Assembly: GCF_013394855.1 (NCBI RefSeq)
Contig: NZ_JABMLK010000001.1
Coordinates: forward strand, 744,001 to 808,000
DNA length: 64,000 bases
Direction: 5' to 3'
DNA from: Limnobaculum xujianqingii
GTDB lineage: Bacteria; Pseudomonadota; Gammaproteobacteria; Enterobacterales; Enterobacteriaceae
Made by a program: the position numbers and the translations under genes. Within the stretch, counting starts at the first letter, position 1. Each line of letters begins with the position of its first letter. The notes below the pieces were generated by a model. The model searched no databases. It saw only the letters and a program-made list of their open reading frames with translations, and was not told the DNA's origin. Shown piece by piece: positions 7,351 through 49,880 of the stretch.

Positions 7351-7420
7351 GAGAATATTCCGGTCGTAGATGCGCGGTACCAAAATAGCTGGCCGGGCAG
7401 CATACAAATTCGGGTTTGAG
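7351..7420 (+). repeat. Degenerate copy of the window's intergenic structured repeat
   Basis: Starts GAGAATATTCCGG.CGTA like the copies at 26613 and 49718 and has a GGCCGG block about 40 nt later, but the right half is lost. Like the other copies it lies between convergent gene ends. Confidence 0.45.
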
Positions 7421-20317: not shown

Positions 20318-20336
20318 TCGAGCTTGAATTATTAAA

Positions 20337-20356
20337 AAGAGCCGCGATTGCGGCCC
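20337..20356 (+). terminator. Stem-loop after uspE
   Basis: GCCGC, loop GATT, GCGGC with partial flanking pairing, 20 nt past the uspE stop. It resembles the stronger hairpin at 20600 that follows pntB. Confidence 0.5.
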
Positions 20357-20398
20357 TGAGACTGAGCCAGACGATTTTATTTTATGTTTTAATATAGC

Positions 20399-20555
20399 CA
20401 ATCGGAGGGAGAGATTGCCGTTGGGGCCGTAGCAGCTTTAGCTGCCGGAGCGCCCCTAGGGAATCTAGGCCCGGAGCACTCCGGCAGCTAAGTACAGATG
20501 GTCTTCTGGCCGAGCACAAAGGCGATATGAATAATATCGGTTTTACGGCCGGAAG
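20399..20555 (-). repeat. Structured intergenic repeat, inverted copy
   Basis: Read on the minus strand it matches the 49718 copy over most of its length: TTCCGGCCGTAAAA at the left, CTCGGCC.GAAGAC, ATCTGTACTT, GGGCCTAG, CCCCAACGGC and TCTCCCTCCGATT at the right. The left helix encloses a CGATAT/ATATCG hairpin. The right helix pairs AGATT with AATCT and GGGGC with GCCCC. The variable part contains CAGC/GCTG and CCGGAG/CTCCGG hairpins. Lies between convergent uspE and pntB. Confidence 0.8.
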
Positions 20556-20599
20556 ATGCACAGTTACTAATTTATTAAGTTTGTCAGCAGTCATCAAAC

Positions 20600-20623
20600 A
20601 AAGGGCCGCAATTGCGGCCCTTT
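20600..20623. terminator. pntB terminator hairpin
   Basis: AAAGGGCCGC, loop AATT, GCGGCCCTTT: a perfect 10 bp stem 22 nt past the pntB stop, T-rich on both sides. Confidence 0.8.
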
Positions 20624-26612: not shown

Positions 26613-26848
26613 GAGAATATTCCGGCCGTAAAAGCTATGTGCACTCATGACTTTAGTGCCCGGCCGGAAGACAATCTGTACTCATATTCAGTGTGCGTCG
26701 GGCCTAGTCCGCCTATGGGCAGTTATGAAACACCTTACGGTGTTTCACCCTACGGGCCAGCGCAAGCGCTGTTCAAACAGGCTTTCGCCTGTTTGTCGTT
26801 GGCTTACGCCAAGTCGACCCAAACGGCGGCCTCTCCCGACGATTAACC
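26613..26848 (+). repeat. Structured intergenic repeat, longest copy with extra hairpins
   Basis: Begins GAGAATATTCCGGCCGTAAAAGC, has TTCCGGCCG paired with CGGCCGGAA around a GCACT/AGTGC hairpin, then ACAATCTGTACT, GTGCGTCGGGCCTAG, and ends AACGGCGGCCTCTCCCGACGATTAACC; CGTCGGG and CCCGACG can close the whole right domain. Between TGGG (26716-26719) and CCCA (26818-26821) sit four perfect hairpins at 26727-26746, 26758-26771, 26774-26795 and 26799-26812. Lies between convergent ydgI and the Qnr-like gene. Confidence 0.85.
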
Positions 26849-26899
26849 TGATTAACATCATTCGACTGCAAAAATATTTTCCAGAGTACGTATTAATAA

Positions 26900-27544
26900 C
26901 TAAAGAACGATTATCCCCAACGGCTCCAACAACTGACTCTGCTGTTCCTGAGTAATCTTCACTCCCGCAAGATTAACTCGCCGCACATCAATCTGACTCA
27001 AATCGCAGTTGGTCAGGTCGCAGCCGGTGAAATCTGCCGATTCCCAGTCAATATGATGGAATTCACCGCCGGACAAATCGGAGCCACAAAATCGGGCGGC
27101 TAACAGGTTAGCCTCTGACCAGCGGTTTTCTCGTAGTTCGCACTGTTCTAAAACCACGTCTTCAAAATTGCAGTAGCTGAAGTTATTGCGTAGAAAAGTA
27201 ACGGAACAGAAGTAGCTGGTACTACCGATCATATTGACAAAACTGGCACCTTTAAAATTGGCACCTAATACTTTGCAATCAGCTATTTCTAGCTCCATAG
27301 CATCAATATGACGAAAATCAGCCAGGCTTAGGTCGCAATGGTGGAAATGGCTCTCTTTCAGAATAGCGCGGTAGAAAGAGCAGCCGCTGTCTTGCTGTTC
27401 ATCATAGAATTTGCAGTGCAGAAATTGCATTTCACTCAGGTTCACACGGTCAAAACTACATTGGTAGAACTGGCAATGCTCAACGATTTCATCAGGAAAA
27501 TCACTGCGAATAAACGCTTTATCTCGAAATACCTGATGCTTCAT
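26900..27544 (-). CDS. Qnr-family pentapeptide repeat protein
   Basis: 214 residues from the ATG at 27544 (AAGGAT 8 nt before), the length of Qnr proteins. Pentapeptide units A(D/N)LXX/F run throughout ('CDLSLADFRHIDAMELEIA'). Specific Qnr features are present: loop A region 'KFYDEQQDSGCSFYRA', loop B region 'GASFVNMIGSTSYFCS', 'LEQCELRENRW', 'GSDLSGGEFHHIDW' and the end 'QLLEPLGIIVL'. Qnr proteins bind DNA gyrase and protect it from quinolones. Chromosomal location and backbone flanks suggest a native gene of the kind from which plasmid qnr genes derive. No LexA box seen upstream. Confidence 0.88.
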   Translation of the reverse strand: MKHQVFRDKAFIRSDFPDEIVEHCQFYQCSFDRVNLSEMQFLHCKFYDEQQDSGCSFYRAILKESHFHHCDLSLADFRHIDAMELEIADCKVLGANFKGASFVNMIGSTSYFCSVTFLRNNFSYCNFEDVVLEQCELRENRWSEANLLAARFCGSDLSGGEFHHIDWESADFTGCDLTNCDLSQIDVRRVNLAGVKITQEQQSQLLEPLGIIVL

Positions 27545-49717: not shown

Positions 49718-49880
49718 GAGAATATTCCGGCCGTAAAAGCAATATTATGTATATCGCCTTTGTGCTCGGCCGGAAGACAATCTGTACTTGGTCTTGGTGT
49801 GCGTCGGGCCTAGACCGCCTAGGGGCACTTCGTTGGCTTGCGCCAAGTCGACCCCAACGGCGGTCTCTCCCTCCGATTAA
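49718..49880 (+). repeat. Structured intergenic repeat, compact copy
   Basis: Reference copy of the family. Left domain: TTCCGGCCG paired with CGGCCGGAA around 31 nt. Linker: ACAATCTGTACTTGG. Right domain: AGACCGCC (49812-49819) with GGCGGTCT (49859-49866), inside it GGGG (49822-49825) with CCCC (49852-49855), inside that a TTGGC/GCCAA hairpin. Ends TCTCCCTCCGATTAAC. Lies between convergent ydiK and ppsA. Confidence 0.85.

Follow-up and report, generated by a model that had tools for sequence, protein, structure and literature searches.

What kind of element is the structured repeat that recurs between genes of Limnobaculum xujianqingii, and how did it come to lie where it does? The window, that is, the whole 64,000-nucleotide stretch of this genome that was analysed, had been described in an earlier note as holding four copies of a new-looking repeat family. 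The copies were located with a covariance model of 25 aligned copies, together with BLAST and nhmmer, and the following features were assigned.

49722..49878, plus strand: repeat core of class A (without recognisable transposon ends); full length, 183.5 bits with the covariance model
20358..20599, minus strand: whole class B element with YPAL/IS1182-type ends; 242 bp between two terminator copies
20400..20557, minus strand: core of the class B element (left hairpin and right nested stem); full length, 152 bits
20600..20621, no strand: terminator hairpin, target duplication copy 1, 22 bp; direct repeat, single in the sister species G003
20336..20357, no strand: terminator hairpin, target duplication copy 2, 22 bp; direct repeat, single in G003
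26617..26844, plus strand: core with an extra multi-hairpin module; found by the model, BLAST and nhmmer; corresponding site in G003 without a copy
26724..26795, plus strand: inserted module of about 72 nt; gap between two aligned parts
7355..7410, plus strand: possible left-arm fragment, non-significant alone; 10.2 bits, E = 1.2

The repeat and its distribution

Three of the four copies originally described are full members of the family. The fourth, placed at 7351-7420, is a left-arm fragment at best; its model score lies amid chance-level matches and its likeness to the family is confined to the first 17 or so nucleotides, AGAATATTCCGGTCGTA. The copy at 49722 starts 29 nt downstream of the stop codon of the preceding ORF. 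The sequence blocks said to be fixed in all copies fit two of the full ones, and the copy at 26.6 kb has CAAACGGC where the listed block gives CCAACGGC. BLAST and nhmmer aligned this last copy in two separate parts (26613-26724 and 26796-26846), from which we conclude that it bears the insert of about 72 nt; the covariance model likewise scored 26617-26757 (plus strand) at 100.3 bits and 26780-26836 at 27.4 bits. A 102-residue ORF spanning the repeat at window positions 26647-26955 is probably spurious.

A genome-wide search did find further copies. In the 4.76 Mb of the L. xujianqingii genome, BLAST with one copy as query returned 47 matches and the covariance model at least 150 (the best 150 of 976 candidates, the weakest with E = 2.1e-13), a family size far above chance. 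Among these best 150, the top 121 are 155-168 nt long, while the other 29 include some of up to about 229 nt and others of 102-153 nt; the latter may be copies that are short, or copies with an insert, such as that at 26.6 kb, which the model matched in part. Plasmid DNA searched with the repeat gave no match. Half copies of the left arm, clustered about 120 nt apart, were seen at locus L028 (1914-2461) and in Limnobaculum allomyrinae (G001:C1:22020-22650).

The model search was extended to 149 genomes of the bacterial family, including that of L. xujianqingii, and gave matches in 14, with full-length copies in Pragia, Budvicia and one other genus. The right-hand core, searched for as a pattern, matched at least 120 stretches, and the 52 examined came from Yersinia, Serratia, Hafnia, Brenneria, Edaphovirga, Symbiopectobacterium, Pragia, Budvicia and Limnobaculum. 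The repeat is a real family with a conserved fold, as proposed. Its standing as a separate, new kind of element is not supported, since the right-hand module is present in so many genera and the ends of the intact copies tie it to YPAL/RU-2 and to the IS1182 family. Its separateness from ERIC was confirmed: similarity to the published letters of ERIC (RU-1) and RU-3 does not exceed that of shuffled sequences. ERIC is also an intergenic enterobacterial MITE; it differs in its TATA-type ends and in a similarity score of 12, against a shuffle maximum of 17.

Folding of the core and gene context

The fold predicted for each copy, with a hairpin on the left and a nested domain on the right, was supported. 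The arms of the left hairpin are TTCCGGCCG and CGGCCGGAA, and the right side forms a nested stem. RNAalifold predicted 31 pairs from the 25 copies, of which 11 are changed on both sides in at least one copy. When 34 right-domain sequences from different genera are aligned, the core stem is kept and 5 of 16 pairs are changed on both sides; here the program also pairs two mostly-GU positions (columns 87-148 and 112-127), which were taken for alignment or bulge effects and could speak for RNA.

Such covariation, together with the many class A copies that start 24-43 nt past a same-strand stop codon, speaks for a structured RNA family, whether a 3'-UTR element or a small RNA, whose transcript would be preserved because of its fold. 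If selection acted on the RNA of one strand, GU pairs should be well in excess of AC mismatches. Counted over 67 full copies, Watson-Crick pairs fill 2030 of 2077 pair cells, GU 10 and AC 11, so that the pairing is almost purely Watson-Crick and neither strand is favoured. Between tandem genes the copies lie in the same orientation as the genes in 14 cases and in the opposite one in 13. This near equality of GU and AC and the orientation-neutral insertion both argue against a strand-specific RNA. Moreover, the core of the intact 20400 insertion lies outside the duplicated terminators. A screen of the window against Rfam gave no match at the gathering score; at a relaxed threshold, three loci gave five matches with E-values of 0.93-9.4, every one below gathering score. 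An RNA family is therefore a very improbable reading, and the case carries a caution, namely that strong covariation within a repeat does not have to imply RNA.

With respect to the neighbouring genes, all four places in the window lie between convergent gene ends, judging from ORFs, as had been noted. This does not hold genome-wide: of 66 full copies, 37 lie in convergent, 27 in tandem and 2 in divergent gaps (67 were taken, mainly as best matches, and one had no upstream gene call; gene calls followed a plain longest-ORF criterion). Convergent gaps are nevertheless enriched, the gap count in 1.2 Mb of G003 giving expectations of 12.1 convergent, 39.4 tandem and 14.5 divergent. Over-representation between convergent genes has been reported for IS1182 in the accessible text of PMC9208149.

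Element ends and insertion sites

About one third of the full copies examined retain a YPAL-type end, GACTGCTGACAAA, together with a matching right end. With the stricter test, 24 of 67 full copies fall into this class B and 43 into class A, without clear ends; with the looser test class A numbers 38 of 67. The genome contains 27 sites matching GACTGCTGACAAA with at most one mismatch, against 9 for a control pattern. For nineteen of the 27, including all nine exact ones, the distance to a core copy is 22 or 34-35 nt, whereas only about 0.4% of the genome is equally near to one. An intact Limnobaculum element is about 245 bp long; its core, of about 157 bp, is bordered on the left by the end GACTGCTGACAAAC... 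and on the right by the end ...GACTTTGTCATCAATCTGA. In the 20358..20599 element the recognisable left end starts at 20592. At about 157-245 bp the elements are too short to encode a transposase of their own, as is characteristic of MITEs. ATTRGCTTT-like letters flanking class A copies were considered as a target repeat and dropped, as the inner flanks of class B have matching letters.

A degenerate form of the end pattern was found in 51 of 198 genomes of the bacterial family (the control gave one match among those listed). A MITE family distinct from the present one, its elements about 140-144 bp long with ends of the same type and duplicated terminators, occurs in G029 (L295, L296 and L298) and G068 (L304-L306), each of which has 21 end matches. 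In G140 a 54-bp palindrome beginning at position 1047 of L308 consists of the two ends alone and is perhaps the smallest such element. In G122 an element with these ends, from position 187 of L311, lies between repeated terminator copies and encloses a palindrome which we take to be REP/PU-like.

Insertion of the family takes place at the hairpins of intrinsic terminators, and the entire hairpin can be duplicated in the process. The 22-bp direct repeat around the window's class B element (20600..20621 and 20336..20357) scored 17, the 99% point of the control being 10. With the 99% point of mismatched pairs as the threshold, the outer flanks shared a direct repeat at 7 of 24 class B and only 4 of 43 class A copies of the same genome, and elsewhere at 14 of 22 loci in Serratia/Edaphovirga, 8 of 12 in Brenneria, 5 of 15 in Yersinia and none of 10 in Hafnia (of 62 loci given from other genomes 59 were scored, three lying too close to an end). 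The repeats fold as hairpins in all 14 Serratia/Edaphovirga and all 8 Brenneria cases, weakly in L133, and not in L104, L024, L103 or L161. In L. xujianqingii itself, a perfect stem of 6 bp or more directly adjoins only 5 of 16 left and 4 of 14 right MITE ends.

Comparison with the sister species G003 was possible at 10 of 68 loci (the 67 full copies and the 26.6-kb one), these having both flanks within 1.2 Mb of that genome. The 20400 site is the one clean empty site among the ten: in G003 the element is absent, the terminator is single, and the two flank matches overlap by 22 bp. No copy is present in G003 at 26617, L101 and L110 either, the sites being too diverged for a clean empty-site call. 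Four loci (49722, L031, L076 and L081) have a copy in the same orientation in G003. Two others, L077 and L084, have one in the opposite orientation, through in-place inversion or independent insertion. At L031, L076 and L081 the G003 copies have an internal module and those of L. xujianqingii do not; the presence of a multi-hairpin module in this same part of the right domain, corresponding to window positions 26724-26795, thus varies between orthologous copies. Other hairpin-rich expansions were seen at L313 and L314.

The four loci shared in orientation with G003 are class A by both tests, whereas L077, L084, L101 and 20400 carry class B ends, which suggests that class A is the older class; L110, a class A copy absent from G003, is an exception to class A being always old. 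After more loci had been added and rows with several or partial copies excluded, core identity between the species was 0.79-0.94, compared with 0.58-0.89 for 45-nt flanks (six scored pairs, biased towards good matches). The core was more alike than the mean of its two flanks at all six scored loci, a figure biased in that the relatives' copies were mostly fetched as best matches, and a flank was more alike than the core in one of 12 comparisons (L111 left, 0.89 versus 0.87).

Relationship to YPAL and IS1182 elements

Among described repeats, YPAL/RU-2 is of similar size and shares the terminal letters (T)TCAGACTGCTGACAAA... and ...TTTGTCAATAACCTCA. The 14 identical letters are found in class B only, and since their alignment score of 14 is not above that of shuffles (mean 11.2, maximum 21), the weight of this likeness lies in its terminal position. 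YPAL target duplications of 3-26 bp, at or beside dyad symmetry, are described in the accessible portion of PMC2229807, and a variable target duplication at dyad symmetry is also seen in the Limnobaculum family; the ends and target behaviour of YPAL are already in print (PMC2759123 and PMC2229807, from the sections available). The interior of RU-2 is unlike the Limnobaculum core (score 9, shuffle mean 10.5), and the Limnobaculum family differs further in its long left hairpin arm and in its abundance, a single genome giving at least 150 matches. Another type of Yersinia element, for instance L131 and L148, has the same right module and may be the YPAL* of about 130 bp in PMC2267715, judging from the part of that paper available. 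In Yersinia similis (L179) a right-module element and an RU-2-like element lie on opposite sides of one terminator-like hairpin.

A first search of four genomes revealed no IS-sized pairs of ends. A wider search with the end pattern gave a lead, as G205 and G098 proved to have such ends close to the edges of contigs. In G205, apparently a Budvicia (the genus of Budvicia diplopodorum, G072), all six N-terminal transposase fragments are preceded by the end TCAGACTGATGACAAAG; they are 86-89% identical to a plasmid protein of Providencia that bears an IS1182-family annotation. Ten IS ends were seen in this genome and all abut a hairpin; for two insertions the hairpins match between ends on different contigs (L333 with L337, L332 with L328), the pairing of these ends being presumptive. 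The same genome also contains MITEs (L300 and L302) with the right-hand module, as recognised by eye, with like ends and with duplicated hairpins. In G098, three DUF772 fragments (best E-value 9.4e-13) lie downstream of TCAGACTGCTGACAAAG, each abutting a hairpin, and in G164 two IS-like loci (L315 and L319) have related but less similar ends and differing hairpins on their two sides.

Six plasmid copies annotated "IS1182 family transposase" (L322-L327) were examined in addition. Three, the complete elements L324 (of Salinivibrio kushneri), L325 and L327, have the 17-bp end TCAGACTGCTGACAAAG and the same whole hairpin on both sides; L323 and L326 have differing hairpins on the two sides, and L322 is a tandem arrangement whose left end was not found. 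In total, 25 of 28 IS ends directly abut a perfect stem of 6 bp or more, the ends being partly non-independent in that L323 and L327 have one site in common; the misses are L326 left, L315 left and L319 right. Such a stem was found at 1.2% of 5000 random positions. Two stricter controls of 4000 positions each had a higher background, of 2.4% for intergenic positions and 4.1% for those in convergent gaps. Duplication of a whole terminator hairpin is therefore seen at both MITEs and IS1182 elements, though not at every copy. The ends common to both are carried by class B and not by most class A copies.

The distribution of the enzyme was also investigated. Searches for DUF772 and for the IS1182 transposase protein each gave no match in the four Limnobaculum genomes. 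The DUF772 search matched one distant genome among 12 relatives and four among 14 chosen genomes; G205, with its IS copies cut at contig ends, was not among the four. Two of the seven DUF772 loci, L316 and L318, have no such ends. With the transposase protein as query, G205 yielded 12 fragments, whereas seven other genomes, including G072, G086 (Pragia fontium) and G169, gave none. The Limnobaculum family may thus be stranded without a transposase, or be moved by an enzyme that escaped detection.

Since a 17-bp end and a hairpin target are common to IS1182 elements and the MITEs, with the difference that the former encode a transposase, IS1182 is the likely mobiliser. The family is best described as MITEs with YPAL-type ends, whose partner is likely an IS1182 element, and we hold it to be highly probable that an IS1182-family transposase moves them now or did so formerly. 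The transposase would recognise the element ends and join the element at the 5' foot of the terminator stem-loop, and repair would then copy the entire stem-loop; this putative chemistry would explain intact insertions between two copies of one terminator. Both convergent genes would keep a terminator and the insertion would do little harm. Class A would represent mostly older insertions, in which the ends and duplicated terminator have decayed and the core has stayed. For the staphylococcal family member IS1272, replacement of the stem-loop at the target, rather than its duplication, has been reported, and the model drawn there includes stem-loop duplication as a possible alternative route (both from the portion of PMC5678879 available).

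The shared ends might instead have arisen by convergence or capture in a YPAL-like element moved by some other enzyme. The ends, the variable target duplication and the dyad-symmetric target do fit the YPAL reports (RU-2 letters, and PMC2229807 as far as its text was available), and IS1182 transposase was not found in the four Limnobaculum genomes searched; even so, the same 17 terminal bases with the same hairpin duplication are too specific for convergence, and both kinds of element occur in one genome, G205, which leaves this explanation very improbable. Spread by a RAYT (Y1) transposase in the manner of REP/BIME-like palindromes would suit the intergenic position, the palindromes and the tandem half copies at L028. 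Fixed terminal sequences, duplication of a hairpin target and a length of 157-245 nt are unlike REPs, making this extremely improbable. Of a different order is the proposal that the core, once the transposon ends have decayed, has been domesticated and is kept at the ends of genes as a hairpin or cruciform device acting in the DNA itself, serving for instance as a barrier between converging transcription or as a supercoil sink. Domestication would account for Watson-Crick pairs without strand bias, for end-less class A copies at sites shared with G003 and for cores more alike than their flanks, this last being alternatively a product of gene conversion among copies; we regard it as doubtful.

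No report linking YPAL with IS1182 was found in the literature searched, which mostly did not extend to subscription journals, and the link may be in print. According to the accessible part of PMC2229807, mobilisation of such repeats by a transposase lacked experimental evidence. With an IS1182-family transposase as the probable partner, the question of which enzyme moves the YPAL-type repeats of the enterobacteria becomes testable. The mode of insertion proposed here would constitute a near-harmless strategy for a mobile element, which would insert into a terminator and leave a second copy of it, so that neither of the adjoining genes loses its proper end.
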